Below, one piece after another: positions 86 through 37,228 of a DNA stretch of 45,628 bases. The stretch is from Microgenomates group bacterium RBG_16_45_19. GTDB lineage: Bacteria > Patescibacteriota > Microgenomatia > UBA1400 > RBG-16-45-19. The stretch covers positions 1-45,628 of the forward strand of contig MHDC01000006.1 of NCBI GenBank assembly GCA_001803415.1. Reading direction: 5' to 3'. The notes beneath the pieces are model-generated. The model was given only the letters and a program-made list of their open reading frames with translations, ran no database searches and was not told where the DNA came from. The number at the start of each line of letters is the position of its first letter. The first letter of the stretch is position 1. Made by a program: the position numbers and the translations under genes.

Positions 86-2908
86 TTAAGTGAGCGACCG
101 ACGAGTGAAGGTGAGAGTGACGCCGGCGACCGGACCTTCTTGAGTCAGGTCTTCGGCGGCGGCGAGAGTGATGGTGTCGGTGGCAATGGTGGCGATTTCA
201 TAGGTGCCGTTGTTTGAAGCCGAACCTTCCACGGTCACTTGACCCATGACTTGAAGCCAACCATCGGTGGCAAAATCACCACTGGCCCGAACGATAGTAT
301 CGGCTGAGGGGGGATTTTCATTAAAGGTAATATTGACACCGGTTAAAACTATTTTCCAGTTGGGATCGACTTGCCAGACAGCAGTAACCGTCAGACCATC
401 ATTAGTGATGGTGCCGGTGGTTTCAAAAGGGAGATAGCCCATTTCCCGAGTCCGGACCGTGATAGCGGTATCGGTGGTGTAATTGTAGGTAGCGGTAGCT
501 TGGTAAGTATCACCAGATACAAGCGTGGTAGCAGTGGTGTTCATGAGTTCAGTGGTGCCAGTGTAGACCCAACATTGAGTGTTCTCTGTCACTCCAGTAA
601 TGGTCAGGGTAACCGGTTGATTAACTGTCGTCGAGGAGCCATCGGAATTTCTGATAGTGGGAATGTCACCTTCGTTAGTGACATTGATGGTCACCGCACC
701 CCCTGAGTTGTTGTAGACGTCGGCTTTGGCGGAATAGAGAAAGTGGGTTTGGCCGGCGGCGCCATCGGATAAAGCCACTTGATTGGTGTCCGCCAGAGCG
801 TCGGCTTTGGTGGGGTAGAAAGCCAGAGAATCAACGGTGACGGCGTTGACATAGTACATGTTGCCATCGGTTAAACCGATAGTGTCCGTGCCACCCTGAT
901 CTTGATAATAAATAGCATCACCATCGGTATAACCATGGCCGGTAGCGTCAATCTCGTCATTATCAGCGTCAACGTCAGTCTGAGTGTGAAAAGCGATGGC
1001 GGCCGGGCCACCACCGGAGAAAGTGTGGCCGTTGAAAGTATAGGTGCCGGCAGCCGTAATGCGGATAGAGTGGCCTAAATCGCCGTCGTGATTGTCGATA
1101 AATTCACAGGTGGTAATGCCGCCCGCTTCGGCGGCAGAGGTGAAGGCAACCGCGCCGTAATCGTCGCCGACCCGTTGGTTAGCGAAAGTAGAGTTGGAGA
1201 GGTTGGCGTCATTTAAGACAATTTCGTTACAGGCGATAAAAGTGATGTTGTCTAAGGTAACCGTGGAGCGGAGGGTAACGGTGGCGTTGATGATGGTGGT
1301 GCCGCCGAAATCCAAGATAGCGCTAGCCGAATGGCCGGAATTGAAGCGCCAGTAAAAGGGCGACCCGCCGACAAAAACAGAGTTGGTAAAGCTGATAGTA
1401 TCGTTAGCTTGGCCGTCGAATTCAAAGCCGACTTTGTTATCGTCGACGTGCCAATCGAGATAATCGAGTTCATCGGCTTGGGTGCGAAATTGGAGGGTGC
1501 GCAAGTTGACACTAAGGTGGATCGGGTCAGTGCCACCAATTTTGATTGGGGCCAGGAAGGTGGCGGCAGAACCTTCGCGGAGCATGATCCGCTGTTGGCC
1601 AACGGAAGCGTTGAGAACAAAATCCAGATCGTCAAAACTTAACGGATTGGTACTGGTGCCACCAGCGAGGGCTTGTTCATAAACAATCACCAGATTACCC
1701 CAACGAAAACTGACGGCACCATAACGGCCTTGTGCCAGGGTCAAGATGCTGTCGATGGCGGTGGCGACGATAGACCCAGACGTGGCAAAACGAGTGTCGG
1801 TGGACTGGTCTACTTGGATACCGACGTGGTTGTAGCCGTCGGGTTTGGTAGTGACGGTGCCTTTGGCGCCGACCGACCAAGCCCGGTAGGCGGTACCATC
1901 CCGGGCGACGAATAAGAGGCCGCACTGGCCGGAGTCGGTAGTTTTGGAGATATCGACGTAGTCACGGGAAGTGACAAAAAAATAGTTAAATAAAACAATC
2001 CCCCCGCTTAAGTCACTAGCTGAGGCAAAATTGAGCTGAGGCCCGCCCACGGTCGAGCCAGCGGCGGAAGCGGCGGGGGTGCAGTCGGCTACGGCCCAAT
2101 AAGGATTGAGGCCTTGGTCAGTTTGGAGGGCGGCGGCGTCGAAGGCAGTGGTTTTAGCGCCAATGGCGGCGAGGGAAAGCGAGGTTTGGTAGATATTACC
2201 CCAGGCGTTGGCGCCGCCGAGGGTGATCCAATAGCCGGATTCGAGCAAAGTCCCGTTGGTAGTGTCGGATTGAATGTAGGGAGAGATGGAGATAGGGGTG
2301 CCGGCGCCATCATCATTGATGGCGACAGAAATGGAACGGGTGTTTTCGTTGAATTGGCCCCGCCAGGTATTGGCGGCTACGGCACCTAAGGCTTTTTTAA
2401 TTTGGTAAGCCAGACCGCCAGAATTGGCGCCGGCATCACCGTTGGTAATGTTGGTCCAGGGCGGTTCGCAAGTGGGACCTATGCCGCCATCGGTGGTTAA
2501 AAAGGAGAAGATGAGGCAATCGTCGGCATCGGTAGTGACGGCAACGCCGTCAAAAGGGTTGGTGCTGTCGTCGGCCGCACTTAAGGCATTGGTATTGATT
2601 GGATCATTAGTATCGATGTTTTTGACGGAGACCACGGTACAGGTGTAGGTTTCGGCTGAAGCCAAGGTGATAGTGGGGGAGGTGACACTACTAGAAGTGG
2701 CGATGAAATAGTAAACGGCGGCGCCGTGGGCGCCATAGTCGGCGGCATAAATGGTAGACCAGTTGGCCGGCGCGGCACCAAAGCCAACCGCGTCATTATT
2801 ACAAAAGGCGATGAGAAGATCATCGGTTTCATGAACAGGCATGTCCGGTTGGTACGAGGCGGCAGTAGTAGTACCTTCGGTAAAGGCGAAATCGCGAATA
2901 GCAGGCAT
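86..2908 (-). CDS. Large phage-structural-like beta-rich surface protein (940 aa)
   Basis: A 940-residue protein rich in Thr, Ser, Ala, Asp and Gly and almost free of Lys, with no signal peptide or membrane segment. Its N-terminal 200 residues resemble phage structural domains ('ASAETYTCTVVSVKNID' near residue 85). The middle (about 480-680) reads like beta-helix turns with repeated 'ITF', 'TFNG' and 'STF' strands. The C-terminus (about 870-935) has the pattern 'SGDFATDGW...GQVTVEGSASNNGTYEI...ITL', which is typical of phage tail/baseplate modules. The start is the ATG 9 nt after a TATTCT box. It is probably exposed on the cell or part of a phage-derived structure, but no other head, tail or lysis gene surrounds it. 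The exact function is unknown. Confidence 0.7.
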   Translation of the reverse strand: MPAIRDFAFTEGTTTAASYQPDMPVHETDDLLIAFCNNDAVGFGAAPANWSTIYAADYGAHGAAVYYFIATSSSVTSPTITLASAETYTCTVVSVKNIDTNDPINTNALSAADDSTNPFDGVAVTTDADDCLIFSFLTTDGGIGPTCEPPWTNITNGDAGANSGGLAYQIKKALGAVAANTWRGQFNENTRSISVAINDDGAGTPISISPYIQSDTTNGTLLESGYWITLGGANAWGNIYQTSLSLAAIGAKTTAFDAAALQTDQGLNPYWAVADCTPAASAAGSTVGGPQLNFASASDLSGGIVLFNYFFVTSRDYVDISKTTDSGQCGLLFVARDGTAYRAWSVGAKGTVTTKPDGYNHVGIQVDQSTDTRFATSGSIVATAIDSILTLAQGRYGAVSFRWGNLVIVYEQALAGGTSTNPLSFDDLDFVLNASVGQQRIMLREGSAATFLAPIKIGGTDPIHLSVNLRTLQFRTQADELDYLDWHVDDNKVGFEFDGQANDTISFTNSVFVGGSPFYWRFNSGHSASAILDFGGTTIINATVTLRSTVTLDNITFIACNEIVLNDANLSNSTFANQRVGDDYGAVAFTSAAEAGGITTCEFIDNHDGDLGHSIRITAAGTYTFNGHTFSGGGPAAIAFHTQTDVDADNDEIDATGHGYTDGDAIYYQDQGGTDTIGLTDGNMYYVNAVTVDSLAFYPTKADALADTNQVALSDGAAGQTHFLYSAKADVYNNSGGAVTINVTNEGDIPTIRNSDGSSTTVNQPVTLTITGVTENTQCWVYTGTTELMNTTATTLVSGDTYQATATYNYTTDTAITVRTREMGYLPFETTGTITNDGLTVTAVWQVDPNWKIVLTGVNITFNENPPSADTIVRASGDFATDGWLQVMGQVTVEGSASNNGTYEIATIATDTITLAAAEDLTQEGPVAGVTLTFTRRSLT

Positions 2909-5879: not shown

Positions 5880-5928
5880 AGATACATTTTAGTATAACAG
5901 GTTGTGTACCTGAGGGGGGTACCGGCTT

Positions 5929-7521: not shown

Positions 7522-7547
7522 GTCAAACCTTAAATGAGGATGACATT

Positions 7548-10938: not shown

Positions 10939-10984
10939 ATAATAAGATTATGCCCCGTTGTCAACCGGGGTAAAGGAGAGAGTT

Positions 10985-11386
10985 ATGGTAAGAATCTTGT
11001 TTATTGAAGATGACTCACTGATGAGTCGGATGTACCAAAAAGCCTTTACGTTTGAGGGTTACGAAATCGAGATGGCGGCGGATGGCGAGGAGGGGTTAAT
11101 CAAAGCCCACCAGGCCAAACCAACGGTGATTTTATTAGACGTGATGATGCCTAAGTTGGACGGCCTACAAGTGTTAGACCGGTTGAAAGCTGACCCCGAA
11201 ACCAAAGCCATCCCGGTGATCATGTTGACGAATTTAGCGGGGGAGCAGGATGCGGATGAAGCACTCAAGCGGGGAGCAGTGAAATATATTATTAAAAGTG
11301 CTTATAAGCCCAAACAGGTAGTCACGATGGTTAAAGAGGTGATTGCTGGCTATACCCGTAACGAGGTTCCGACAAGTAGCTCATAG
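10985..11386 (+). CDS. Single-domain response regulator, partner of the CHASE4 kinase
   Basis: A 133-residue receiver with the acidic pair Asp9/Asp10, phosphoacceptor Asp52 ('ILLDVMMPKLDG'), 'MLTN' and the Lys of 'KYIIKSA'. The start is the ATG at 10985 with AAGGAGAG 5-12 nt upstream; an upstream in-frame TTG is less likely. There is no DNA-binding or enzymatic output domain. A second CheY-like fold protein with the same 'DVMMPK' core lies at 18314, so the pair probably arose by duplication along with their kinases. Confidence 0.93.
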   Translation: MVRILFIEDDSLMSRMYQKAFTFEGYEIEMAADGEEGLIKAHQAKPTVILLDVMMPKLDGLQVLDRLKADPETKAIPVIMLTNLAGEQDADEALKRGAVKYIIKSAYKPKQVVTMVKEVIAGYTRNEVPTSSS

Positions 11387-13074: not shown

Positions 13075-14430
13075 ATGAAGCCTGCCCGGAAAAAGTGGCC
13101 CCGCCGTGGCGGGGTAGGATTTACGTATGTTGAGGCCTTGGTGGCGGTGGGGACCCTGGCGGTGTTAATAGCCGCGGTGATGGTGATTATCAAGTCTTCG
13201 GCTCAGTTGGTGGGGGTGGCTCGGGTACGGGCGATCGCTACCGGTTTAGCTCGAGATCGCTTGGAACTGGCTCACGCCGTCCCCTATGAAGATTTGGGAG
13301 TCGAAGGGGGAATCCCCAACGGGATCTTGCCGGCAGATGAATGGGTGACGGTCGGGGGACAGGAATTTTTAATTGAGACGGATGTGGTTTATATCGATGA
13401 CCCGGATGACGGTTTGGCACCCGGTGACGTCATCCCTACCGATTACAAACGGGTCCGAACCGAAGTATCTTGGAGTGGGGTCTTAACCTCGACGCCGATC
13501 GTGATGTGGTCGGATGTGGCCCCCAAGGGTTTGGAAACCATGGTGGGGGCGGGGACGTTGTCTTTAAGAGTCTTAAATGCCAGCGGGGAGCCGGTGAGTC
13601 AGGCGACGGTGTCGATTATTGCCAACAGCTTGAGCCCGCCGGTGGCGGCGACCCAGTCGAGTGATATTGACGGCCGGGTGCTGCTACCGGGGGCGCCGGT
13701 ATGTGTCGAGTGTTATCAGGTCACGGTGACTAAGCCGGGATATACCACCGACCGAACTTACGGGACCGCTGAAGTGGTCAACCCCAACAAACCGCACGTC
13801 TCGATCATTGAAGCTCAGGTGTCGGAAGTGACCTTTGCCATTGATAAACCGGCCAGCCTGACTTTACGGGCGGTGAGGGGGGCTCAGTTTGGCTACGCGC
13901 CGTTTGCCGGGGTGGTATTTAAACTGCAAGGGACAAAAGAGATCGGTCGGAACGCGGTGGACGAACCGGTTTATTTGTATGAAGCCAATCACGTCACCAG
14001 CGGCGGCGGCGGCCAGGTGATCGTGCCCAATTTGGAGTGGGATACCTATAAAATCATCATGCCGACCGGCTCATCAGTTGATTTTGCCGGGTCGCTGCCA
14101 TTCACGCCAGTGGTAGTAACGCCCGATTCCAGCCAACTAGTGAACTCGGTAGTGGTGGCGGCCACACCGGACAGCTTATTGGTCCGGGTGACGGATTTAA
14201 GTGAGCAACCGGTGGCGTCAGCGTCGGTGACCTTAAGTTTGAGCGGGACCATTGAGGCCACCAAGTCGGCCGGGGTACCGGGAGCGCCTGATTGGGCTCA
14301 GGTGCATTTTCCGGGTTTGGACTCGGTGAATTATGACGTTTTTGTCTACGCCGGCGGCTATCAGGAAGCGACCGCTTCGGTGACCGTCAGTGGGGATAAA
14401 CTGGAGGTTTTCAAGTTGGACAGCTTATGA
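13075..14430 (+). CDS. Type IV pilin-like protein with carboxypeptidase-regulatory-like repeats
   Basis: A 451-residue prepilin. A basic leader ends in Gly before 'FTYVEALVAVGTLAVLIAAVM', with Glu at mature position +5 as needed for assembly. The long C-terminal part carries two or three transthyretin-like/carboxypeptidase-regulatory beta modules (about 162-235: 'LSLRVLNASGEPVSQATVSI'; about 365-450: 'LLVRVTDLSEQPVASASVTL') that would stand out from the pilus or pseudopilus. The start is the ATG 6 nt after TAGACT (leaderless type). The next prepilin gene overlaps by 4 bp (ATGA). It is probably a large minor or tip pilin involved in surface contact. Confidence 0.82.
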   Translation: MKPARKKWPRRGGVGFTYVEALVAVGTLAVLIAAVMVIIKSSAQLVGVARVRAIATGLARDRLELAHAVPYEDLGVEGGIPNGILPADEWVTVGGQEFLIETDVVYIDDPDDGLAPGDVIPTDYKRVRTEVSWSGVLTSTPIVMWSDVAPKGLETMVGAGTLSLRVLNASGEPVSQATVSIIANSLSPPVAATQSSDIDGRVLLPGAPVCVECYQVTVTKPGYTTDRTYGTAEVVNPNKPHVSIIEAQVSEVTFAIDKPASLTLRAVRGAQFGYAPFAGVVFKLQGTKEIGRNAVDEPVYLYEANHVTSGGGGQVIVPNLEWDTYKIIMPTGSSVDFAGSLPFTPVVVTPDSSQLVNSVVVAATPDSLLVRVTDLSEQPVASASVTLSLSGTIEATKSAGVPGAPDWAQVHFPGLDSVNYDVFVYAGGYQEATASVTVSGDKLEVFKLDSL

Positions 14431-15068
14431 GTAAAAATATGAGGCAAAAAATTATACATAAATTGTTGAATCAAGGCTTTTCGATTGTGGAAATCATCGT
14501 GGCCACCTTTATGGGCACGGTAGTTTTTGTCGGAGCTTACACTTGGTGGAACGTGTCTTTAAAGCAGTTTGTGGTGGGGGTGGGGACGATTAATAACAGC
14601 GAACAAGCCCAGCGGTCCTTAAGAGCGATGACTGATGTGCTCCGAGAGGCGCGGGACGGTGAAGATGGGGCTTACCCGATGGCTTTGGCCGATGACCAAG
14701 AGTTAATCATCTATTCGGATGTGACTGGGGACCTGATGGCCGATCGAGTGCGCTATTTTTTGGACGGCAACGAGCTAAAACGAGGGGTGATTGAACCAGC
14801 CGGAGATCCAACCATATATGATCCGAATACGGAGACAGTCACGGTCTTGGCAACGGGAGTAGAAAACGGCACCGAGCCGATCTTTTATTATTACAACGCT
14901 GCCTGGCCCGCCGATACAGTCAACAACCCGTTAGCGGCGGGGAATCGGTTGTTGGCTAGCCGCTACTTGGAAATTCAGATTATGATTGACCAAGATGGGG
15001 ATGTGGGGTCACCCCCGGTCAACTTACAAGCCGGAGCCCAGCTTAGGAATCTAAAAGATGATTACTAA
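14427..15068 (+). CDS. Type IV pilin-like protein, PilW/GspJ type
   Basis: A 213-residue prepilin with the cleavage region 'NQGFSIVEIIVATFMGTVVFVGA' (Gly-Phe, Glu at +5) and an elongated helix ('NNSEQAQRSLRAMTDVLREARDG') typical of PilW/GspJ-like minor pilins. A compact beta domain follows. It is coupled to the preceding prepilin by an ATGA overlap. It probably belongs to a minor pilin complex with its two neighbours. Confidence 0.82.
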   Translation: MSKNMRQKIIHKLLNQGFSIVEIIVATFMGTVVFVGAYTWWNVSLKQFVVGVGTINNSEQAQRSLRAMTDVLREARDGEDGAYPMALADDQELIIYSDVTGDLMADRVRYFLDGNELKRGVIEPAGDPTIYDPNTETVTVLATGVENGTEPIFYYYNAAWPADTVNNPLAAGNRLLASRYLEIQIMIDQDGDVGSPPVNLQAGAQLRNLKDDY

Positions 15069-15103
15069 GACAAGAATCAAGAATTACGAATTAAGAATCA
15101 AGT
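15069..15103 (+). repeat. Low-complexity spacer between pilin genes
   Basis: The 35-base gap is built of near-repeats of the units AAGAATCAAG and GAATTA. It carries no Shine-Dalgarno sequence for the following gene. A similar though different repetitive spacer separates kinase and receiver at 18256-18300. Confidence 0.5.
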
Positions 15104-16513
15104 ATGAGTAGCCGAACCCAAAATACAAAATACCAGAAACTAAATGATGGGGCGGCGACGGTCCTGGTGATGATCATGGGCGTGGTATCGGTCATCGTTT
15201 TAGGAGGGTTGGTAGTCTTGGCCAGTACTAACCAAGTGGCGGTGGAGCGACGGGTGGCCAACGACCAGGCTTTAGCGGTGGCTGAAGCCGGGGTCAATTA
15301 TTACCGCTGGCATTTGGCTCATCACCCGGATGACTACACCGACGGCACCGGGAATCCAGGACCGTACGTCCATGAATATAAAGATCCCCAGGGTGGGTTG
15401 GTGGGTACTTATAGCTTGGAGATTACCCCGCCCTCAGCTGGTTATTCGATTGTGTCGATCACTTCGACTGGCTGGACCGCAGTCAATCCGGGGATAAAGC
15501 GCGTCGTCAGGGTCAGATATGGTATCCCGTCGTTGGCTCGATTTTCCTTTTTGCATAACGCCAACGTTTGGTTTGGCCAGGGCTTGACAGTCCATGGTCG
15601 GGTGTTGTCTAACGGCGGCATTCGTCAGGACGGCGTCAACGATTCAGTCATCCAGAGCGCTAGGGAAACCTACACCTGCGGGTCGGAGACGGGTTGCAGC
15701 CCGTCTCAACCGAGACCAGGGGTCTGGGGTAGTGGCGGGCCGAGTGAGTTGTGGGAATTTCCGGTGCCGCCGGCCGATTTCGATGCCATTAATGTTGATT
15801 TCAACGCCATCAGAACCGCCGCCCAAAGTACTAACACTTATTGGGGACCGTCACCCAGGCAAGGTTACCATTTGGTGTTCGAAGCTTCAGGCCAAGTCCG
15901 GGTGTATGAGGTGGTTAGCACCAATTACTATCGGGGCTATGATTCGGGAGTCGGTTGTACCAATCTGTATCAGCGGATTACCTCGGAGAACCAGTTAACC
16001 GTGGTGAACTTGGATACGCCCAAATCGCTTTTATTTGAGGATACGGTTTGGATTGAAGGTACAGTTAAAGGCAATGCCACCGTAGCCGCCGCCAGGTTCC
16101 CTTTGGATTCGTATAACGAAGATGTCTGGATTAGAGGCAACCTGGTTTATAGTGCCAAGGACGGTAAGAACCATCTGGGTTTGATTGCTCAGCGTAACAT
16201 CTATTTTGTCAAGGATTTACCCGAACCGTTTGAAATTAATGGGGCTCTCTTGGCAAAAAACGGCAAAATTATTCGCCACCACTATCGTGCGTCCGGCTGC
16301 AGCAGTTACAGCAACGCGGTCCGGAGTCGCTTAGAAATTTACGGGGCGGTCATCTCCAACTTAAAATCTTACTGGAATTGGGGGACGCCACCATCATCCG
16401 GTTTTACCACTCGAGAAGTGACCTATGACAGCTCACTCTATCTGTATCCGCCGCCTTACTTTCCGGCTTCGGGTGATTATGAAGTGATCAGTTGGGATGA
16501 GTTGCCGCCTTAG
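15104..16513 (+). CDS. PilX-like pilus assembly protein
   Basis: A 469-residue protein with one N-terminal membrane helix ('ATVLVMIMGVVSVIVLGGLV') followed by the PilX signature helix ('RRVANDQALAVAEAGVNYYRWHL'). The large remainder has repeated beta strands ('LTVHGRVLSNGGI', 'VWIRGNLVYSAKDGKNHLGLIAQRNIYF', 'EINGALLAKNG'), as in PilX/DUF4900-like proteins. It contains several Cys residues (for instance in 'YTCGSETGC' and 'ASGCSSY') that could form disulfides outside the cell. It completes a three-gene minor-pilin group. The next gene, a kinase, follows 17 nt later in what looks like the same transcript. Confidence 0.8.
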   Translation: MSSRTQNTKYQKLNDGAATVLVMIMGVVSVIVLGGLVVLASTNQVAVERRVANDQALAVAEAGVNYYRWHLAHHPDDYTDGTGNPGPYVHEYKDPQGGLVGTYSLEITPPSAGYSIVSITSTGWTAVNPGIKRVVRVRYGIPSLARFSFLHNANVWFGQGLTVHGRVLSNGGIRQDGVNDSVIQSARETYTCGSETGCSPSQPRPGVWGSGGPSELWEFPVPPADFDAINVDFNAIRTAAQSTNTYWGPSPRQGYHLVFEASGQVRVYEVVSTNYYRGYDSGVGCTNLYQRITSENQLTVVNLDTPKSLLFEDTVWIEGTVKGNATVAAARFPLDSYNEDVWIRGNLVYSAKDGKNHLGLIAQRNIYFVKDLPEPFEINGALLAKNGKIIRHHYRASGCSSYSNAVRSRLEIYGAVISNLKSYWNWGTPPSSGFTTREVTYDSSLYLYPPPYFPASGDYEVISWDELPP

Positions 16514-16530: not shown

Positions 16531-18255
16531 ATGACGGTCGGGTCGTTGGCTGATTACGAACGGTTGATGCGTCGGGCCAAGATCATGGAAGCCTTGTCGG
16601 CGGCGTCGGAGTATTTTTTAAAGGCGACCCCGGAAACCTGGGAGAAAAATGTCATCATTGTCTTGGAGCAACTGGGTGAAGCTCGGGAAGTGCACCGAGT
16701 TTATGCCTGTAAAAACGTTTATTTTAATAATGAATTGAAAGTTTTCTTGAAGTATGAGTGGAAAAAGGACGGGACCAAAAACGTCTTTATTGATGATCTG
16801 ACTGATGCCAGTACCTATGCTCTGGTGGGCCTTAACCGCTGGGCGGAAGTGCTAGCCCGCGGGGAGATGATCTGTCAGACGACGGCCAGTTTGCCCAAGA
16901 ATGAACTGACTTGGAACGTGTCCCCGGTGGCCGAGGGAGTCATTATCGTACCGGTGTTTGTCGGGACCGAATGGTGGGGCTATTTGGGGTTTGAGACCTT
17001 GGTAGAAGGCGAGGAGCAGTGTACCCGACCGGAGGTGGAAGCGTTGCAAGCGGTGGCCACCACCTTTGGGGCGGCGATAAAAAGGAAACGGTTGTCGGAG
17101 GAGATTGAGCGGGAACGGGCCAGTGTTCAGCATAAAGTGGAAAAGCGGACTCGGGAGCTGACCATTGCCCAAGCGGAATTGAAAGCAGCTTTATTCCATA
17201 GTAAGGAAGAAAAAGCCAGGTTAACGGCCTCGATTCATTCGTTGTCCATGGGGTTTGTGATGACGAATCGGGAAGGGGAGGTGTTGCTGTATAACCATGC
17301 CGTTAGCGGGATCTTGGGGGAGATTAATCGGCCTTGGACCTGGCCGGATTTAGCGGAGAAATTCATGGGGTTGGTGGAAATGGACCAAACGCTCAAGACA
17401 GCGGTGGATGAAATCAAGGAGATCAGAATTGACGACCTTCATTACCATGAGAAGTGGTTAAGGCTTTATTTTACCCCGATCAAGATGGTAGAGGACGATG
17501 GCCGGGTCATCGGGGTGGTCTGTCTGATTGAGGACATTACCGAATATAAAGAGTTGCAGCGGGCGCGGGATGAGTTCTTTGCGGTGGCCTCGCACGAGTT
17601 AAGAACTCCCTTAACGGCCATAAAAGGTAATGCCCAATTGCTAAAGCGCTTGGTGCCGGAGGTCAATGGCAATCCGACGGCTTTGGAAATGCTGAAAGAT
17701 ATCGAGACCATGTGTGACCGCTTGTCGGCCATGGTTAATGAGTATTTGGATGTGTCCCGGTTGGAAATTTTACCGGGAATTGTCCAGTCGGGACCATTCA
17801 ACCTGGTGGAAATGGTGGCCAACGTCATGCGGGATTTGGAGGGTCAAGCCAAGGCCAAGGGTTTGGCATGGGAAATGCAGCTGCCGTCGGGGGTGGAGGT
17901 GATGGCTAAGGCCGATCGGGCGCGGAGTGAGCAAGTCTTGGTCAATTTATTAGCCAATGCCATCAAGTACACGGACCAAGGTGGTATTTACGTTAAGGTG
18001 GAGAGCACTCAGGATAAAGTTAAGTTGGCGGTCTATGATACCGGCGAGGGGATCAACCCGGAAGATCATGGGAGTCTGTTTCAGAAGTTTAAGCGGGCGG
18101 GTGACCGGGTTTACACCCGGGATGTGAAGGAGGGGACGGGCATGGGCTTGTATATTTCCCGGTTATTGACCGAAGCCATGGGAGGCAGGATCTATTTGGA
18201 AAAATCCCAAGTCAATGTCGGCAGCGGCTTTGTGGTGGAGCTACCGAAGGGCTGA
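16531..18255 (+). CDS. Soluble histidine kinase (GAF-like, PAS, HisKA, HATPase)
   Basis: A 574-residue kinase without membrane segments. The N-terminal 185 residues form a GAF-like domain ('RRAKIMEALSAASEYFLKAT' to 'VEALQAVATTFGAAIKRKR'). A coiled coil, a PAS domain ('KARLTASIHSLSMGF'), HisKA with His355 ('ASHELRTPL') and HATPase_c ('NLLANAIKY', 'DTGEGI', 'GTGMGLYISR') follow. AAGGAGGAG precedes the ATG by 10-18 nt. The position right behind the pilin genes suggests it senses or controls pilus activity. The GAF-like domain is paralogous to that of the kinase at 21923, while the PAS-HisKA part matches the kinase at 8635. Confidence 0.93.
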   Translation: MTVGSLADYERLMRRAKIMEALSAASEYFLKATPETWEKNVIIVLEQLGEAREVHRVYACKNVYFNNELKVFLKYEWKKDGTKNVFIDDLTDASTYALVGLNRWAEVLARGEMICQTTASLPKNELTWNVSPVAEGVIIVPVFVGTEWWGYLGFETLVEGEEQCTRPEVEALQAVATTFGAAIKRKRLSEEIERERASVQHKVEKRTRELTIAQAELKAALFHSKEEKARLTASIHSLSMGFVMTNREGEVLLYNHAVSGILGEINRPWTWPDLAEKFMGLVEMDQTLKTAVDEIKEIRIDDLHYHEKWLRLYFTPIKMVEDDGRVIGVVCLIEDITEYKELQRARDEFFAVASHELRTPLTAIKGNAQLLKRLVPEVNGNPTALEMLKDIETMCDRLSAMVNEYLDVSRLEILPGIVQSGPFNLVEMVANVMRDLEGQAKAKGLAWEMQLPSGVEVMAKADRARSEQVLVNLLANAIKYTDQGGIYVKVESTQDKVKLAVYDTGEGINPEDHGSLFQKFKRAGDRVYTRDVKEGTGMGLYISRLLTEAMGGRIYLEKSQVNVGSGFVVELPKG

Positions 18256-18300
18256 TGGATTGATGATTGATGATTAATGATTTATGATTGAAGTATTAGA
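18256..18300 (+). repeat. Low-complexity spacer between kinase and receiver
   Basis: The gap is made of iterated TGATGATT/GATTGATG-like units. No ribosome-binding site is present before the receiver ATG at 18314. Confidence 0.5.
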
Positions 18301-18313
18301 TTAATCTACCTTT

Positions 18314-18703
18314 ATGGCTTCAGTCCTGATAATTGAAGACGACATGATCCTGGCGAAGATGTATCAGCGGGCTTTTGGGGTGGAGCAGGTACCGGTGGAG
18401 CTGGCGTTTGATGGTGAAGACGGTTTGAAGAAAGCCATGACCTTAAAGCCATCGCTAATTATTTTAGACGTGATGATGCCTAAGATGAGCGGCTATCAAG
18501 TCTTGGACGCGTTAAAAGCGGATGAAGTGACCAAGGGAATTCCGGTGATTGTCCTGACTAATTTGAGTTCGGCTGAGGATACCAGTTTGGCGACGTCAAA
18601 AGGGGCAACCCAGGTGATTGTCAAAAGCCAGAGTGACCCCTTTAAGGTGGTGACGATCGCTAAGCAATACCTGGTGGCACCGGAGTCAACCACAAACACT
18701 TAG
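18314..18703 (+). CDS. Single-domain response regulator, partner of the GAF-PAS kinase
   Basis: A 129-residue receiver with Asp9/Asp10, phosphoacceptor Asp52 ('IILDVMMPKMSG'), 'VLTN' and Lys in 'QVIVKSQ'. It has no output domain. It lies 58 nt after the kinase, separated by the repetitive spacer. It presumably acts by binding a partner such as a pilus motor component encoded elsewhere; that is inference from the neighbouring pilin genes. Confidence 0.93.
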   Translation: MASVLIIEDDMILAKMYQRAFGVEQVPVELAFDGEDGLKKAMTLKPSLIILDVMMPKMSGYQVLDALKADEVTKGIPVIVLTNLSSAEDTSLATSKGATQVIVKSQSDPFKVVTIAKQYLVAPESTTNT

Positions 18704-18784: not shown

Positions 18785-19186
18785 CTATTGAGGGGTTAGG
18801 CTAGTGAGCTTTTTATCCAGGGAATAGAGAGGGATTTTTAAGCGCTGGGCGAGTTCTAGGTAACTGGAATCATAAGCAGATAAATGATGAACTTGGGCAA
18901 GTTTGAGGACGGATAAAGGTTGGTTTTCGGTGAGAGTCAGATGGAGCTTTGAAATTTCGGTCAGAAGAGTTTGGGCGTGGTGAAAGGTAATCTTATGACG
19001 GAGGATGGCGGTATTAAGACCGCTGATTACTTCGTAAATAAGGAGGAGGGGGGCGTAAAACTTGATCAATCCAGAGGCATGTAGGTCCATCGTCTTATCA
19101 ACTTGAGGATTGGTTTCATCTGGCATGAGGTAAGCCAGCAAGTAGGAGGCATCAATAACGGCTTGAATATTAGTGCTTGCGGCCAT
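18785..19186 (-). CDS. PIN-domain toxin (VapC-like)
   Basis: A 133-residue PIN-domain ribonuclease. The four acidic positions are visible: Asp in 'VIDASYLLAYL', Glu in 'IYEVISGL', Asp in 'SAYDSSYLELA' and Asp in 'YSLDKKL'. The start chosen is the ATG at 19186, giving a 17-bp overlap with the antitoxin; a TTG at 19210 is an alternative. It is paired with the RHH antitoxin upstream. Confidence 0.85.
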   Translation of the reverse strand: MAASTNIQAVIDASYLLAYLMPDETNPQVDKTMDLHASGLIKFYAPLLLIYEVISGLNTAILRHKITFHHAQTLLTEISKLHLTLTENQPLSVLKLAQVHHLSAYDSSYLELAQRLKIPLYSLDKKLTSLTPQ

Positions 19187-19409
19187 AATTGATGAGCTCT
19201 TTATAGTCAATAGGGGAGTGGACGTGCCTGATTGATCTAATCTTCTGGTGGGCTAGCTTGATTTCATCTTTAATGGGTAGATCACGATAGGTTTGGGAAA
19301 CAGCCTGGCGGACCAAATGTCCTACCGACGTACCCTGCTGCTGTGCCAGGGCGGCTAACATGCGCCAGTCGGCTTCATCAAAGATGATATTGGTCCGTTT
19401 GGTTAACAC
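19170..19409 (-). CDS. RHH-type antitoxin
   Basis: A 79-residue protein with a ribbon-helix-helix N-terminus ('RTNIIFDEADWRMLAALAQQQGTSVGHLVRQAV') and a hydrophilic C-terminal tail that should wrap the toxin. The GTG at 19409 is chosen because it follows TATACT by 6 nt; a TTG at 19415 would lie almost on the -10 box. It should autoregulate the operon. Confidence 0.8.
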   Translation of the reverse strand: MLTKRTNIIFDEADWRMLAALAQQQGTSVGHLVRQAVSQTYRDLPIKDEIKLAHQKIRSIRHVHSPIDYKELINYGRKH

Positions 19410-19415
19410 GACCAA

Positions 19416-21922: not shown

Positions 21923-23545
21923 ATGGACCAACCCTTGATTAACCAAGTGGAGCCAGCGCTGGCCGCTTTAGCTCGCCGGGATAAGATTTTGTCGGCCTTG
22001 ACCTCGGCTTCGGATGTCTTTCTTAGAGGTTCCTTGGCGACGTGGCAGGAAAACGTGCTCCAAGTGTTAAGACATATGGGGGGAGAACTGGGGGTAAGGC
22101 GAATTTTCTTATGCAAACACCAGGAAATCACGGCGAAGCGAGTATTAACCTCACTCAGGTATGAATGGCTGGCGGCCGGGGATCAGACCCGAGTGGATGT
22201 GGCGGAGTTTCAAAATATGAATCTTAATGAGGGCGGTTTTGAGCGCTGGGCAGAGGTACTGTATCCTGGTGGCGTCCTCTATGGAGAGCGGGACGATTTT
22301 CCCGAGGGAGAACGACAGTGGTTTCTATCGCCCCAATGGCAGACCCTAATTGTGGTGTCGGTGTTTGTGGAGTGGGAATGGTGGGGTTTTATCGTGATTG
22401 AGGATTACTCATTTGCCGGCGGGGTATCAGCAGCCGAACTGGATGCGTTTAAAACGGTGGCGGTGACTTTTGGGGCGGCCATTCGACGCAAGCGAATGGA
22501 AGAATCGTTGCTGCGGGAGCGGGCAGCGGTGGAGGAGAAGGCCAAACAAGTGGCCGACGTGGCCCGGTTTCCGTCAGAGGATCCTTGGCCGGTGCTGCGG
22601 GTGAAGCATGAAGGCACCTTAACCTACGCCAACCGGGCGGCCGAACCGCTAATAAAGAATTGGCAGGTGACTGTCGGTGGGGTGGTAGGTGAAACCCAGC
22701 AGGCTTTAGTGAATCAGGTAATTAAGCAGGGAGCACCGCTGGCGGTGGATGCTTTGATTGGAAAACAGACGTTTTCACTGTTGTTTGTACCGATCATGGA
22801 GGCCGATTATGCCAATGTTTACGGTCATGATGTGTCTCGAGAGCGGGAGTTGGACCGGTTAAAGTCGGAATTTTTAGCCATTGCCTCACATCAGTTACGG
22901 ACGCCGTTAACCTCGATGCGGTGGTACTCGGAACGGTTGTTGGCCAAACGGCAGGGTTTGGCGCCGGACCAGATCGAGATGACTCAGGTGATTCATGACA
23001 GCTCGGTGCATTTAGCCGGGTTGGTAAATGATTTGTTAAACGTTTCCCGGATTGAGCGGGGGAAGATTGAACCGGAGCCGGTCTTAAGTCACCTGAAATC
23101 GATGATTGAGGAGGTCTTAGCTGAATTGATGGCCCAACTGGTCGAGAAAAAGATTGACTTGAAGAAGGAGATCGACGAGGAAGTGGCGCCGTTTTACTTT
23201 GATCCGGAGTTGATCCGCCAGGTGATTACTAATTTGGTGGCCAACGCCATTAAGTATTCCCGACCGGCGGGAGTGGTCGTGGTTAAGGTATTTTTATTTG
23301 ATCAGCATCATGTGGGAGTGGAAGTGGTGGATCAGGGGATAGGCATCCCCGAAGCGGAACAAGTCAAGATTTTTGAGAAGTTCTTTAGAGCCAGCAATGC
23401 CCGAACTCATGCGGCTGAAGGGACAGGCTTAGGTCTGGCCTTATGTCAGATGATAGTCGAGAAATCCGGCGGCCGGATCTGGTTTACCTCAGCCCCGGGA
23501 CAAGGATCCACCTTTGCCTTTGTCTTACCCTATCGGCGAAGTTGA
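21923..23545 (+). CDS. Soluble histidine kinase (GAF-like, PAS-like, HisKA, HATPase)
   Basis: A 540-residue kinase. The N-terminal GAF-like domain ('RRDKILSALTSASDVFLRG' to 'TVAVTFGAAIRRKR') is paralogous to that of the kinase at 16531. A shortened PAS-like region (about 210-300) leads to HisKA with His323 ('ASHQLRTPL') and HATPase_c ('NLVANAIKY', 'DQGIGI', 'GTGLGLALCQ'). The HisKA/HATPase belongs to a different branch from the two upstream kinases (HQL, not HEL), so this gene looks mosaic. The start follows TATACT (21910-21915) by 7 nt. Confidence 0.93.
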   Translation: MDQPLINQVEPALAALARRDKILSALTSASDVFLRGSLATWQENVLQVLRHMGGELGVRRIFLCKHQEITAKRVLTSLRYEWLAAGDQTRVDVAEFQNMNLNEGGFERWAEVLYPGGVLYGERDDFPEGERQWFLSPQWQTLIVVSVFVEWEWWGFIVIEDYSFAGGVSAAELDAFKTVAVTFGAAIRRKRMEESLLRERAAVEEKAKQVADVARFPSEDPWPVLRVKHEGTLTYANRAAEPLIKNWQVTVGGVVGETQQALVNQVIKQGAPLAVDALIGKQTFSLLFVPIMEADYANVYGHDVSRERELDRLKSEFLAIASHQLRTPLTSMRWYSERLLAKRQGLAPDQIEMTQVIHDSSVHLAGLVNDLLNVSRIERGKIEPEPVLSHLKSMIEEVLAELMAQLVEKKIDLKKEIDEEVAPFYFDPELIRQVITNLVANAIKYSRPAGVVVVKVFLFDQHHVGVEVVDQGIGIPEAEQVKIFEKFFRASNARTHAAEGTGLGLALCQMIVEKSGGRIWFTSAPGQGSTFAFVLPYRRS

Positions 23546-23587
23546 TGTTATGATGAGAAAGATTAATGGGTAAAAAAAGGAGGCCTC

Positions 23588-23962
23588 ATGGCAACAATTT
23601 TATTAGTCGAAGACGACAAGATGCTAGGTAAAGCCATGGCGGATGCTTTAACCGAGGGCGGCTTAGAGGTGACCTGGGTCCGGTCAGGTGAAGAGGCGGT
23701 AGCTCAGGTGGCGCAAATTAAACCACAGTTGGTGTATCTCGATATCATGCTGCCGGGGATTGACGGGTATGAGGTCTTACGGCAAATCAAGGCTAATCCG
23801 CAAAACCCGCCGGTGAAGATAGTCATGTTATCGAATCTCGGTCAAATGGAGGAAATGGAGAAAGCCAAGGAATTGGGGGCGGCCGATTACGTCATTAAAG
23901 CCAACGTTGATCTGGCAAAATTGGTCGAACTAACCAAGACTAAATTTTTGACCCCGACTTAG
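23588..23962 (+). CDS. Single-domain response regulator, partner of the third kinase
   Basis: A 124-residue receiver with Asp9/Asp10, phosphoacceptor Asp52 ('LVYLDIMLPGIDG'), 'MLSN' and Lys in 'DYVIKAN'. A strong AAGGAGG lies 6-12 nt before the ATG, consistent with an internal operon gene. There is no output domain. It is convergent with the last gene of the minus-strand membrane operon, with 6 bp between the stops. Confidence 0.93.
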   Translation: MATILLVEDDKMLGKAMADALTEGGLEVTWVRSGEEAVAQVAQIKPQLVYLDIMLPGIDGYEVLRQIKANPQNPPVKIVMLSNLGQMEEMEKAKELGAADYVIKANVDLAKLVELTKTKFLTPT

Positions 23963-23968
23963 GGATGG

Positions 23969-24448
23969 TTATGCGGGATCAAGCCATTCGGGAGTGGAGG
24001 CATCACCGGTAGTTTGGACGGCCGCTTGTTTCAGGCTAGTGTGAGCCGAATCGGTCAAACCACGGAAGAAGTAGTAAACGGTGGGGATTAACAATAAGAT
24101 GCCCCCTAAAGCCAGAGACAAAGCCCATTCCATGGGGACGGTGGCGCTGTTGGTAGCGATGTCCTGAAGGGCATAAAGTTGGAGCAGACCGGCCATGACC
24201 AAACAGATGGCGCCTTTGGCAAAAAAGGACTTTTTGAACAGGGAGAAGATGACCAGCGGGGTCAAGAAAACGGCGAGACCCCGGATGACAATGATGGTGG
24301 AAGTAAAGGGGTAGTGGCGGAAGTACTGGCCTTGAGCAAAGGCATAGGGGGAAGTCAGGTCGAGAGGTAGAGGATTAACCACGGCTTCTAAAACGTAGGC
24401 TAATAAAAAGAGGCCGAGAATCGTGGCTACCCAATATTCGCGTTTCAT
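23969..24448 (-). CDS. Four-span membrane protein of unknown function
   Basis: A 159-residue protein with about four hydrophobic spans (starting 'WVATILGLFLLAYVLEAVV', then near 55-70, 80-95 and 110-130) and a hydrophilic C-terminal tail. It is the last gene of the six-gene operon, one base after the previous stop. A large loop after TM1 ('SPYAFAQGQYFRHYPF') should face outside. No family recognised. Confidence 0.7.
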   Translation of the reverse strand: MKREYWVATILGLFLLAYVLEAVVNPLPLDLTSPYAFAQGQYFRHYPFTSTIIVIRGLAVFLTPLVIFSLFKKSFFAKGAICLVMAGLLQLYALQDIATNSATVPMEWALSLALGGILLLIPTVYYFFRGLTDSAHTSLKQAAVQTTGDASTPEWLDPA

Positions 24449-24449
24449 T

Positions 24450-25010
24450 TTAAATCTCTTCGGGTTTGAGGTATTTAATATTTTTCTTGAGCGAGTCAGA
24501 GGTCAGCCGGCCGTGAGCCTTGTCCATCTGCATGGCCCGTTTTTCTAAGGCTTTCATGTCTGCTTGGGGGAGGGTATTACCCATAGCTCTAACTGAATCC
24601 TGGACGTTGTAAGAAATGACGTATTGGGAGGTACGATCGGGTTTGGTCTCCCAGTCGGCGTCAACGGTGACGGTGGTTTTGGTATTGTGGCGGATTTTGC
24701 GCTTCTGCCCTTCACCTAAACCCCGGGAGATCCAGACCCACATGCCGGGGTAGACTTCTTTTTTCCAGGACTTGGTCGAGTCGGTCAGGGTGTGGTGAGT
24801 ACTTTTGGTGACGACACCGACTACATCCGGGGGTGGGGAAGCTTTAGATTTAATTAGGTGTTTGAGCTTAGGATTTTTTTCTAAAAATTCGCTATAACTC
24901 ATCCACTCATGGTGGCGCTTAAATTCAACTCTAACAAAACCGGGGTAAGCGGGGTCCGGGGCGGCCGATTGGGCCTCGCGGTTGGTACCGTTAACATCGA
25001 CAATTTGCAT
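24450..25010 (-). CDS. Phage-structural-like soluble protein
   Basis: A 186-residue protein; the ATG at 25010 is preferred over an upstream GTG at 25028. The middle carries a module common in phage structural proteins: 'TLTDSTKSWKKEVYPGMWV' followed by 'GEGQKRKIRHNTKTTVTVD', a beta domain ending 'QYVIS'. The C-terminus is helical and charged. There is no signal peptide or membrane span. It lies between two membrane-protein genes in a tight operon, so it probably assembles with them at the envelope. Confidence 0.7.
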   Translation of the reverse strand: MQIVDVNGTNREAQSAAPDPAYPGFVRVEFKRHHEWMSYSEFLEKNPKLKHLIKSKASPPPDVVGVVTKSTHHTLTDSTKSWKKEVYPGMWVWISRGLGEGQKRKIRHNTKTTVTVDADWETKPDRTSQYVISYNVQDSVRAMGNTLPQADMKALEKRAMQMDKAHGRLTSDSLKKNIKYLKPEEI

Positions 25011-25039
25011 ATTAGTGCATCTTACCACAGCCAGGAAGG

Positions 25040-25690
25040 TTAGCTACCGAAAACAAGATTGAAGTAGCTGTAACTTAAGCCGGTATGGTTGCCCCAGTAG
25101 CTACTGAAATCGGTGGCTCCCCGAGCGTAGCGATATTCACCAGAGTTGCCTTCACGGGCGATGTACCAAGCCCCATTTTTGTTCAAAAAGCCGTAATAAG
25201 CGGGGATGGTGCTGTCATCGACTTGGCTGATTTCGTAGCCATCGGTGGGGTGTTTTTCGGCGGGGTCGATTTTGTTGCCGGCGGTGTCTTTGAGGGCGAC
25301 GGTGCCGGGACCGGGAACCGAGCCGAAGAAGGCGGCGTGAGCTGATTTACTAAAAAGGGCAAAGACAAAGGTAGCCAGGCCGGCACTGCCGATAAGTTTA
25401 AGGAACATGCGGCGGTTGAGATCTTTGACTTCGGCGTCGTCTAAAGCTTCACCTTCCAAGACTGGAGCGGCTGGATAAAGGGTGGCTGAAGGCAACCGAG
25501 GTCGGATAGATTTGGTTTTGCCGACCCGACGGCGGGAAAAACTGCGGCCAATGACCCGGATGAAGTAAAAGGCAATGGGCAGAAAGAGTAAGCCATAGAG
25601 GAGTTGATAACCACCCTTGGCATTGAAAACGGCTGCCAGGGTAATGACCAGAGTCAGGATGAGGTTGTAAACGATAATCAGGCGGCGCAT
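25040..25690 (-). CDS. Two-TM protein with internal Tat-like segment and external beta domain
   Basis: A 216-residue protein in three parts. Residues 1-55 form a two-span hairpin ending in 'SRRR'. Residues 56-92 are a charged linker. 'NRRMFLKLIGSAGLATFVFAL' (around 92-112) matches the twin-arginine consensus RRxFLK and is followed by a hydrophobic stretch and an 'AHA' cleavage-like site. The C-terminal about 95 residues ('SVPGPGTVALKDTAG', 'YYGFLNKNGAWYIAREG') are a beta domain that should be exported. An internal Tat motif behind two spans is unusual. The N-terminal hairpin is paralogous to the next upstream gene product. Confidence 0.75.
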   Translation of the reverse strand: MRRLIIVYNLILTLVITLAAVFNAKGGYQLLYGLLFLPIAFYFIRVIGRSFSRRRVGKTKSIRPRLPSATLYPAAPVLEGEALDDAEVKDLNRRMFLKLIGSAGLATFVFALFSKSAHAAFFGSVPGPGTVALKDTAGNKIDPAEKHPTDGYEISQVDDSTIPAYYGFLNKNGAWYIAREGNSGEYRYARGATDFSSYWGNHTGLSYSYFNLVFGS

Positions 25691-25696
25691 AGAGAG

Positions 25697-26050
25697 TTAA
25701 GGTTGTGCTAGAACTTGAGGCAGAGTGGTTAGGGTTTTGACGAGGAAAGCGACGATTAAGGCCAGGTAGAGCGATAAGGTAACCAGAAAAGTGGGGTGGT
25801 TTTGGGTCAGGAAGCGTTTAAGGGAAAAGGTGGTGAGGTTTGGCTGAAGGGGGTCGGTGGCCGCCGGGGGAGCGTATCTACGGCGGTAGTAAGCCTTAAG
25901 GAGTTGGTAGGCAAAATAGCCGGAGAGAGGTAGAAACAGGGCGGTCATGAGTAGGTTCTTTAAATTAAAGCCGGCGGTCAAGCTGACCGCGGTCAGGGTG
26001 ACGGTGATCACGGCTGAGTAGACAAAAAGCCATTTATCGATTGCTTTCAT
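25697..26050 (-). CDS. Three-span membrane protein, paralogue of the neighbour's N-terminus
   Basis: A 117-residue protein. Residues 1-58 ('FVYSAVITVTLTAVSLTAGF', 'MTALFLPLSGYFAYQLL', 'YYRRR') align with the first 55 residues of the following gene product: both have a Tyr-Thr-rich first span, then 'LFLP...YF' in the second span, then an Arg cluster. A third span ('FLVTLSLYLALIVAFLV') lies near the C-terminus. Spacing to its neighbours is 6-7 bp, so it is co-expressed. Function unknown. Confidence 0.7.
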   Translation of the reverse strand: MKAIDKWLFVYSAVITVTLTAVSLTAGFNLKNLLMTALFLPLSGYFAYQLLKAYYRRRYAPPAATDPLQPNLTTFSLKRFLTQNHPTFLVTLSLYLALIVAFLVKTLTTLPQVLAQP

Positions 26051-26057
26051 ACAGGCT

Positions 26058-26417
26058 TTAGGGAGTTGGAGAGGGATAAAGCTCGGGACTCAAGACGGCG
26101 GCGGCCGTACCCAGGACTGGTTGATTAAGGGTGTTAAGGTCGTTGGCTAAATTAACTGCTTGCTCCAGGTTATTAACGGCGGTAGTTAGATCAGCGACGG
26201 TGGCTTTTAGGTCGGTGAGCTGGTCCAGTTTGTCGTGGATGGTTTTTAATGATTGGGAAGTTTGAGTTTGGGAATTAACCAGGGGAGTCAGGCTATCGGG
26301 GGCGCGGCGGCCGAGGAAGATAGTCAGGAGGAAGCCAGAGACGGCACCGATGACAAAGACCAAGAGGATCAGAAGGTAAAAGCGACGGATTAACCAGGCG
26401 GTGGTGGGGGTAGGCAT
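26058..26417 (-). CDS. Single-span membrane protein with external coiled coil
   Basis: A 119-residue protein from the ATG at 26417, 4 nt after the upstream stop. One membrane span ('FYLLILLVFVIGAVSGFLL') is followed by a Leu/Ile heptad region ('LKTIHDKLDQLTDLKATVADLTTAVNNLEQAVNLANDL' region, about 60-100) predicted to form a coiled coil outside the cell. It could be an oligomerising stalk for the operon's surface proteins. Confidence 0.7.
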   Translation of the reverse strand: MPTPTTAWLIRRFYLLILLVFVIGAVSGFLLTIFLGRRAPDSLTPLVNSQTQTSQSLKTIHDKLDQLTDLKATVADLTTAVNNLEQAVNLANDLNTLNQPVLGTAAAVLSPELYPSPTP

Positions 26418-26421
26418 AAGT

Positions 26422-26895
26422 TTAAGCTGGAGTCTGGGAGACCGAGAGGCCGCCGTATTGATAAGTGAGGACAATTAAGATCCCCATCAAGACCAGGCGT
26501 AAAGCTTGATCGGTGAAAGAGAAATCTTGAGATAGGACTAAGTCTAAGAGGAGGCAGATGAGACCAACAATGATTAAGAGACGGGTGATCTTGAGGGGTA
26601 GGCCATAAACCGGGGGGTTGACCGGTGGGTAAGGAGCGGGAGAGGCACCGGCGACAAATTCCTTTTTGATTTGCATGTTTGGCTCGGGTGCGGCTTGTAA
26701 AGCCGCTTTGACAGCGTCTTCGGGGATGGGGGTACCGACAAATTTTTCAATGGCCGTGTGAGGAATTTTAAAGCGGCCAAGGTCAGACAGGCCACGGTGG
26801 CCGCGCAGTCGTCCTTGGTCTAAGAATTTGTAAATACTGTTAGTGGAGAAGCCGAGGATTTTAGCGGTTTGTTTAACGGTGTAGAAGGTAGCCAT
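26422..26895 (-). CDS. HTH protein with C-terminal membrane anchor
   Basis: A 157-residue protein. An excisionase/MerR-type HTH at the N-terminus ('YTVKQTAKILGFSTNSIYKFLDQGRLRGHRG...GRFKIPHTAIEKFV') is followed by a Pro-rich linker and two hydrophobic spans ('LLIIVGLICLLLDLVL', 'LRLVLMGILIVLTY'). A DNA-binding domain tethered to the membrane could couple envelope state to transcription of this operon, of which it is the first gene. The ATG at 26895 lies 8 nt after TAGAAT (leaderless type); an upstream start is not supported. Confidence 0.78.
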   Translation of the reverse strand: MATFYTVKQTAKILGFSTNSIYKFLDQGRLRGHRGLSDLGRFKIPHTAIEKFVGTPIPEDAVKAALQAAPEPNMQIKKEFVAGASPAPYPPVNPPVYGLPLKITRLLIIVGLICLLLDLVLSQDFSFTDQALRLVLMGILIVLTYQYGGLSVSQTPA

Positions 26896-27264: not shown

Positions 27265-27597
27265 ATGACCGAAATTAGCGATGCTGATTGGCAAAAGGTC
27301 CAAGGTTTGCTGACCAAGTCAGCGGGAGCCAGTCGAGGTGGACGGCCGAGGATGGATGATCGGCGGATTTTAAACGGCATTTTCTGGGTGCTGTTAAATG
27401 GCGGCCAATGGTCACAGTTGCCCAAAGCCTATGGTGCTTATGTCACCTGCTGGCGGCGGTTTAAAGAGTGGGAGAGTAGCGGTTTATGGGCGGAGATCTG
27501 GGTGATCTACCTCAAAAACTTGGATCGTCAGGAGCAGATTGCTTGGATGTTGGCCTTTTTGGATGGGAACTTTGTGCCGGGAAAGAAGGGGAAGTAG
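27265..27597 (+). CDS. Solo N-terminal part of an IS5-family transposase
   Basis: A 110-residue protein matching the DUF4096/IS5-type transposase N-terminus: 'ISDADWQKVQGLL', 'GGRPRMDDRRILNGIFWVLLNGGQWSQLP' region and 'RRFKEWESSGLWAEI', then 'FLDGNFVPGKKG' and the stop. The Asp of 'LDGNFVP' should be the first residue of the DDE triad. The rest of the catalytic core is absent downstream in any frame, and no terminal inverted repeats are visible. It is therefore a remnant or a domesticated DNA-binding fragment. The HTH part is intact and a GGATGAG ribosome site is present. Confidence 0.7.
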   Translation: MTEISDADWQKVQGLLTKSAGASRGGRPRMDDRRILNGIFWVLLNGGQWSQLPKAYGAYVTCWRRFKEWESSGLWAEIWVIYLKNLDRQEQIAWMLAFLDGNFVPGKKGK

Positions 27598-36526: not shown

Positions 36527-36919
36527 TCAAGGCGAAGTTTTGAGTCTGAGTTGAGTGATGATCGAAAAGTGTTTGGTGTTGGCAGTGACTAGGATGAGAT
36601 GGTGCGTGATTGCGGTTGCAGCGATGAGCAGGTCAAAATCTTCAAGTCTTTGACCTTGTTTCTCTAGCTCGACTCTAAGCGGAGCGTAGGTAGCGATGAC
36701 GTTCTGGTCGAGCGGTAGCACTTGGAGAACGAGGTCTTGAATCAGCGACTCGATGAGTTTTAAGTTTTTTGGCGGATTTAGACTTTTATGGGCACCGGCA
36801 AGCAATTCAGCGTAGGTGATAATACTGATGGCGGCGCCGGCTGGAAAGATCAGTGGATCTGGGGAAGAATTACCTCGCAAGAGGTTGACGAGGACATTAG
36901 TATTCAGGAGATACTTCAT
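36527..36919 (-). CDS. PIN-domain protein with a substituted catalytic Asp
   Basis: A 130-residue VapC-type PIN protein. The first catalytic residue, normally Asp in 'LLDTNVL', is Asn6 here ('YLLNTNVLVNLL'; codon AAT). The other positions look intact: Glu in 'TYAELLAG', Asp in 'LEDFDLLIAATA', and 'ANTKHF'. Length and fold signatures are normal. The loss of the first Asp should weaken or abolish metal-dependent RNase activity, so the toxin may be inactive. It overlaps its antitoxin by 4 bp (ATGA). Confidence 0.85.
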   Translation of the reverse strand: MKYLLNTNVLVNLLRGNSSPDPLIFPAGAAISIITYAELLAGAHKSLNPPKNLKLIESLIQDLVLQVLPLDQNVIATYAPLRVELEKQGQRLEDFDLLIAATAITHHLILVTANTKHFSIITQLRLKTSP

Positions 36920-37173
36920 AGTTGGGAATCAAAGCGGTGGGGATTTTGAGTCCGGTCTTGAGTGATGTTAGGAAAAGCGGGAAGACTGCCAGAGTATTTT
37001 TTCAAGATATTGGTAAAATCTCTGATTATTGGAGTGACCTTGGCAGGAATAATGGTGGCGATGATTTTACCATGGCGCTTGATGGAGACATCGGCTTTTT
37101 CGTAAGCGACGAGATTGATAATTTCCCCAGTATTATGTTTGAGATCGGTGGTTGTGAAGCTATAAGTGTTCAT
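36916..37173 (-). CDS. Phd/YefM-type antitoxin
   Basis: An 85-residue protein with the Phd/YefM N-terminal DNA-binding fold ('YSFTTTDLKHNTGEIINLVAYEKADVSIKRHGKIIATIIP') and a flexible C-terminal toxin-binding tail. The ATG at 37173 is the last base of a perfect palindrome arm and 7 nt after TAAAAT, so longer upstream frames are rejected. It pairs with the PIN protein and should autorepress. Confidence 0.87.
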   Translation of the reverse strand: MNTYSFTTTDLKHNTGEIINLVAYEKADVSIKRHGKIIATIIPAKVTPIIRDFTNILKKYSGSLPAFPNITQDRTQNPHRFDSQL

Positions 37174-37208
37174 ATTAATCATTTTAATAATAATGATTAA
37201 TATGTCAA
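37171..37208 (-). promoter_or_regulatory. Phd/PIN promoter with overlapping palindrome
   Basis: On the minus strand TTGACA (37208-37203), a 16-bp spacer and TAAAAT (37186-37181), then 7 nt to the ATG. A perfect inverted repeat with 13-bp arms (37171-37183 and 37192-37204, 8-nt centre) spans the promoter and includes the start codon. It is the expected operator of the Phd-type antitoxin. Confidence 0.82.
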
Positions 37209-37228
37209 TAACTGATGGTGACGAGGGG

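Follow-up and report, generated by a model that had tools for sequence, protein, structure and literature searches.

The window, a 45,628-nucleotide stretch of DNA from the genome of Microgenomates group bacterium RBG_16_45_19, contains a six-gene operon that we read, with a probability of roughly one half, as the membrane dock of a phage-derived surface appendage, which would be served by a specialised Tat translocase that inserts one of the operon products, protein D. The genes for D and TatC are associated and physically linked in genomes of Microgenomates (Patescibacteria), a group of very small bacteria known without cultures, the TatC proteins concerned form a separate clade, the order of the operon genes is conserved, and the fibre-like proteins encoded in many of these loci are related to phage virion proteins.

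The operon consists of six consecutive ORFs on the minus strand, which run from 26895 to 23969 with intergenic gaps of 4, 7, 6, 29 and 1 bp (Table 1), and the genes on both sides lie on the opposite strand. The tight operon of the original prediction, with gaps of 1-29 bp, was thus recovered. Scans for promoters and terminators gave matches at chance level only. The topologies that had been predicted from the letters also held for a membrane-anchored HTH protein (A), a single-span coiled-coil protein (B), a two-span protein with a Tat-like segment and an external beta domain (D), a soluble phage-structural-like protein (E) and a four-span protein (F), while for C, described as a three-span protein, we found two to three spans.

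Table 1. Genes of the operon and phage-type genes at the start of the window
Feature	Position	Strand	Description
A	26422..26895	-	HTH_17 DNA-binding domain and two C-terminal membrane spans
B	26058..26417	-	one span and coiled coil; a shorter form of the SH3b stalk seen in relatives
C	25697..26050	-	2-3 spans; paralogue of the D N-terminal hairpin
D	25040..25690	-	two spans, cytoplasmic linker, internal Tat signal, external beta domain
E	24450..25010	-	soluble, no span, phage-virion-type
F	23969..24448	-	four-span membrane protein; seen only with D
PHG19	86..2908	-	large beta-rich phage-type protein, no signal, no span
PHG11 start, cut by contig end	1..30	-	first ten codons, MPISADWTVN

The HTH_17 domain of A scored above the Pfam cut-off (E 5e-8), and homologues of A were found at the same position in nine related genomes; we propose that A is a membrane-tethered regulator. 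For B to F, no Pfam or NCBIfam model scored above its cut-off and a PHROGs search gave no convincing match. B matched the profile of the stalk proteins weakly but significantly (E 4.5e-5), and its stalk homologues carry an SH3_3 or SH3b domain at their C-terminal end, an end that B of the window lacks. The N-terminal hairpins of C and D proved to be paralogous (E 8e-4), and clustering placed members of the C family in six genomes. The N-terminal part of E corresponds to a protein of 66-75 aa in phage contigs. One marginal match of the E model to a phage tail-tube protein (E 8e-4) was taken as a hint only, and the ubiquitin-E1 matches that ranked below it were set aside.

Among the relatives and in named genome contigs, D was found in many Microgenomates lineages, namely Levy-, Woyke-, Roizman-, Davies-, Woese-, Beckwith- and Collierbacteria. 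The genes typically start with A or a different regulator, after which come the SH3b stalk (B), C, D, in some cases E, and finally F. In 13 of 17 named loci, F follows D immediately or after one intervening gene; of the remaining four, three sit at or close to the end of a contig or are divided between contigs. Within the class, F is restricted to genomes that encode D (23 of 23, a count that omits two borderline F matches with E > 1e-4). Since the same genes in the same order are seen in many Microgenomates families and F occurs only with D, the operon is more than a chance arrangement. The conserved order, the lack of Pfam and NCBIfam models for B to F, and the phage relatives of E and of the external domain of D together support the undescribed envelope apparatus with phage-type domains that had been proposed, for which conserved gene order had been named as a check.

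The Tat signal of D, RRMFLK at residue 93 followed by AHA|AF, lies within the segment RRMFLKLIGSAGLATFVFALFSKSAHA and is followed by an external beta domain (residues 126-214, about 95 residues), the strands of which were modelled with a pLDDT of about 95. In 27 D homologues the motif mostly reads D-x-[DN]-[RK]-R-x-F-[LI], and after it come a short stretch of low hydrophobicity and then K/R; most also have an AxA site after the Tat segment. KR, which makes a weaker Tat motif, is found in some copies, and the AxA site is missing from a few. The RR or KR pair is preceded by two or four spans in 24 of the 27 homologues (simple hydropathy cut), the Tat segment is less hydrophobic than the first span in most of them, and one to three K/R occur within the 14 residues counted after it in all 27; the hydropathy values are approximate. 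An even number of spans, low hydrophobicity and following charges characterise the dual Sec/Tat membrane proteins, including Sco2149 (PMC5449189). The Tat segment of D fits this rule.

The external domain of D appears to be of phage type. It gave a fold match to an uncultured Caudovirales protein (E 4.5e-5) and a profile match to a protein encoded upstream of PHG11 in the viral locus L219 (E 1.6e-4). No Pfam domain was found in D and no Cys or His is invariant in its alignments, a PDB fold search with D yielded nothing significant, and PDB sequence searches with D, PHG11 and f6 revealed no convincing relative. The best PDB sequence matches of D (E 1e-4) were rejected since they extended no further than the span region of a designed protein. 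Searches by tblastn with the external domain of D and with f6 against isolate phages gave nothing.

In many D loci we found a block of large beta-rich proteins (E, PHG19, PHG11 and f6), all of which lack membrane spans; long copies of f6 contain a repetitive insert that looks beta-helix-like by eye. Scans of IMG/VR with alignments returned 235 relatives of PHG11 and seven of f6, while single-protein scans of viral contigs with f6 or E gave no result. Among 87 viral loci, a few of which overlap, PHG11 was present in 84, f6 in 69, PHG19 in 35 and the E-like protein of 66-75 aa in five, and the usual gene order was E, PHG19, PHG11, f6. A major head protein follows the block in L209 and a portal gene precedes it in L203. 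Since the same families occur in the same order in these viral loci, beside head and portal genes in the two cases, we consider the block to be of virion type. Sheath, tube or baseplate genes were not detected among the operon and cluster proteins scanned, and no head or portal genes were noted in the D loci that were read.

The Tat genes of this genome are located on another contig, C14, which encodes TatC, TatA, PHG11, f6, a secreted SH3b protein (S1) and glycosyltransferases. The score of this TatC (113.8) is below the NCBIfam tatC cut-off of 132.7 and far above that of Pfam. The window (contig C6) ends in the start of PHG11 and C14 begins inside PHG11 without its start, so that the two contigs probably adjoin; as an exact overlap between their ends was sought and not found, and the ends share no sequence, we infer this join. 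It would give the order of the complete genome G057, in which D, F, PHG19, E, PHG11, f6, TatA, TatC and S1 lie within about 25 kb; PHG19 family members are also present in the loci of G057 and G274. A short motif is common to S1 and the C-terminus of f6 (E 5e-6 in G033), which suggests a possible contact between the two proteins. The original claim that no known secretion core is present is therefore correct inside the window, and it fails for the system as a whole, which is tied to a Tat translocase encoded on C14. In the same way, the prediction of an undescribed envelope system was sound, and the Tat link, the phage virion block and the SH3b ends of the stalk homologues had escaped it.

Taken as a dock, the operon might function as follows. 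Sec would insert the first two spans of D, and the third segment, which is weakly hydrophobic and lies between the twin arginine and K/R, would be passed to the co-inherited TatA/TatC, which would move the folded phage-type external domain across the membrane. C, F and the SH3b stalk B would then assemble with D, while the large Sec-exported S1 might anchor this complex to the wall. The fibre-like proteins without a signal, E, PHG19, PHG11 and f6, would be displayed on the dock, perhaps through Tat while bound to D, and the product would most likely be an adhesin or a host-contact fibre, which A could regulate from the membrane. Membrane genes that travel with their own Tat branch, and often with a virion block, suggest an undescribed appendage built from captured phage parts. 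Against the dock model, the size of large fibre trimers may exceed what Tat can transport, and the KR variants of D and the D loci in which the fetched stretch contains no block of phage-type genes are further weak points.

A bolder version, which we regard as tentative and rather doubtful, is that of a host-attachment fibre of captured virion proteins that are exported in folded form via the dedicated Tat system, with D as the signal-bearing carrier. Tat is reported to be able to transport a partner without a signal of its own (PMC10924467), so that by analogy D could carry the fibre proteins. If true, this carrier reading would imply that both the class of bacterial surface appendage and the use made of Tat are new, and fibre passage through Tat would be an appendage export route of which we found no description in the papers searched.

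It is also possible, though we think it unlikely, that the specialised Tat branch and a complex of D, C, F and B work alone, for instance as a wall-anchored sensor or adhesin, and that the phage-type genes are separate cargo of the same island. The stretches fetched for several D loci (G022, G036, G363, G420 and others) indeed contain no phage-type block, with glycosyltransferases or unrelated repeats there, while some other loci end too early to tell. Such an independent complex would likewise fit the loci of G005 and G057, where a sensor-only protein with a CHASE or dCache domain is encoded between D and F, and the histidine kinases and response regulators on the flanks of the operon, both in the window and in several relatives. 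Against separate cargo, E, a gene of virion type, is embedded in the operon with D on one side and F on the other, the external domain of D has phage relatives of its own, and D and TatC are repeatedly accompanied by E, PHG19, PHG11 and f6, in at least ten lineages.

Among 281 genomes of the class, D was found in 40 and TatC in 39; 32 encoded both, eight only D, seven only TatC and 234 neither (Fisher p = 7e-28). In 53 relatives, which partly overlap this set, the p-value was 4e-7; because the genomes are related, both p-values are indicative only. The eight genomes with D only are all drafts of at least 30 contigs, and TatC was present in all 19 D genomes of at most 20 contigs. D and TatC were located on one contig in 21 of the 32 genomes having both, five of which are single-contig genomes (G005, G057, G577, G603 and G614), at distances of 2.2-24.5 kb (median 14.7 kb). 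In G033 TatC directly follows D, and in G022 and G036 the pair TatC-TatA precedes the operon.

A maximum-likelihood tree of 62 TatC proteins showed a two-way split with a support of 100/100. The D-linked clade comprises 36 sequences, 33 from D genomes and the others from G025, the contig of which ends within the phage-type block, G374, the TatC gene of which is close to the edge of its contig, and G516. The other clade comprises 25 sequences from genomes without D and one TatC of G509. This genome has two TatC genes: the copy at C1:13185 belongs to the other clade, while the copy at C6:26547, 19 kb away from D on one contig, was outside the tree and has a Pfam score within the range seen in the D-linked clade. 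The deep placement of G060 and G099 is unsure, since long branches come together at the point where they join, as a warning of the tree program indicates.

A simpler explanation for this association is that Tat is rare, so that any substrate must co-occur with it in a phylum in which most members have no Tat, and nothing about the pair is dedicated. TatC was indeed found in only 35 of 380 genomes of the phylum, and Tat has been reported in Microgenomatia, Paceibacteria and Saccharimonadia (PMC9166423). A few other Tat-like signals do occur in the same genomes, which fits this explanation. In favour of the dock model, a pattern search of four genomes found a strict RRxFLK followed by a hydrophobic stretch only rarely besides D, with none in G033 and one possible case each in G000, G274 and G005. 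We nevertheless consider mere rarity improbable, as Patescibacteria with a TatC of the other clade, including five of the same class, lack D, the physical linkage of D and TatC recurs in many genera, G509 keeps the TatC near D beside its other-clade copy, and no D genome was seen with an other-clade TatC as its sole TatC.

Very improbable, finally, is a decaying prophage or virus-derived island in which the membrane genes would serve phage entry through the envelope or lysis: the PHG19-PHG11-f6 block is a genuine phage block, as the two viral loci with portal or head genes illustrate, but a pattern scan of viral contigs revealed no relative of D, the 87 viral loci lack D, F, TatC, TatA and S1, nine of ten D genomes lack the terminase family searched (phrog_2, which we take to be the large terminase), G509 giving one weak partial match, and the frames are intact in many lineages.

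When the dock and its translocase are compared with known systems, D resembles the dual Sec/Tat membrane proteins, such as the actinobacterial Rieske protein Sco2149 (PMC5449189), in its even number of spans, twin arginine, weakly hydrophobic last span and positive charges. It differs from them in having a small beta domain of phage type, with no conserved Cys or His, on the outside instead of the cofactor-binding external domain of the dual Sec/Tat proteins, in keeping an AxA cleavage-like site in many copies, and in not being homologous to the described families. With PhoD and TatAdCd of Bacillus subtilis, a specialised Tat pair (PMC3068169), the system shares that the genes of such a pair and of its substrate are neighbours and that the same genome may carry another TatC. 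In contrast to PhoD, D is a polytopic membrane protein and not a phosphodiesterase, with no Pfam match to the PhoD-type catalytic domain; the distance between D and TatC is often several kb, and the dependence of D on Tat is putative. The D system is thus similar to PhoD-TatAdCd in its Tat pair and to Sco2149 in its topology, and a member of neither family.

On the phage side, E-like proteins, PHG19, PHG11 and f6 of the D loci are of the same families and in the same order as in the IMG/VR virion block, whereas the D loci have no portal, head or terminase genes nearby and are joined to Tat and membrane genes. Like tailocins, contractile injection systems and gene transfer agents, they appear to represent phage structural genes retained by the host, although, unlike in those systems, neither sheath and tube nor head and packaging genes were present among the operon and cluster proteins scanned.

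We found no description of a locus with D, Tat and phage-type genes in the open-licence literature. As a genomic system we regard it as new in kind, made of parts of known kinds (Tat and phage structural proteins), and the mechanism put forward above is a hypothesis. By joining a distinct Tat branch, one conserved membrane operon and captured phage virion genes, the locus names concrete proteins for tagging, purifying and imaging. It bears on two open questions: how Patescibacteria touch other cells, and why a few of them retain Tat after losing most of their metabolism.

Several further observations concern the surroundings of these genes. Between f6 and TatC on C14, glycosyltransferase- and methyltransferase-like genes are present (L060:3035-9102, which is G000 C14:6035-12102), and such genes also follow D in G022, G036, G315 and G420. 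The sensor-only proteins with CHASE or dCache domains are encoded at L015:7478-8458 (G005) and L107:8773-9708 (G057). Repeated histidine kinase and response regulator genes occupy 5387-11386, 16531-18703 and 21923-23962 (+) of the window, and similar genes flank D in L117, L118, L120, L125 and L129. A short transposase-like ORF lies beside the operon at 27265-27597 (+), as it does in the nearest relative, G001 (L012:4160-4498). By eye, the window also contains probable toxin-antitoxin pairs of the nucleotidyltransferase type and the PIN type (11636-12996, 18785-19415 and 36527-37311), as well as three proteins with pilin-like N-terminal segments at 13075-16513 (+), which are probably minor pilins.
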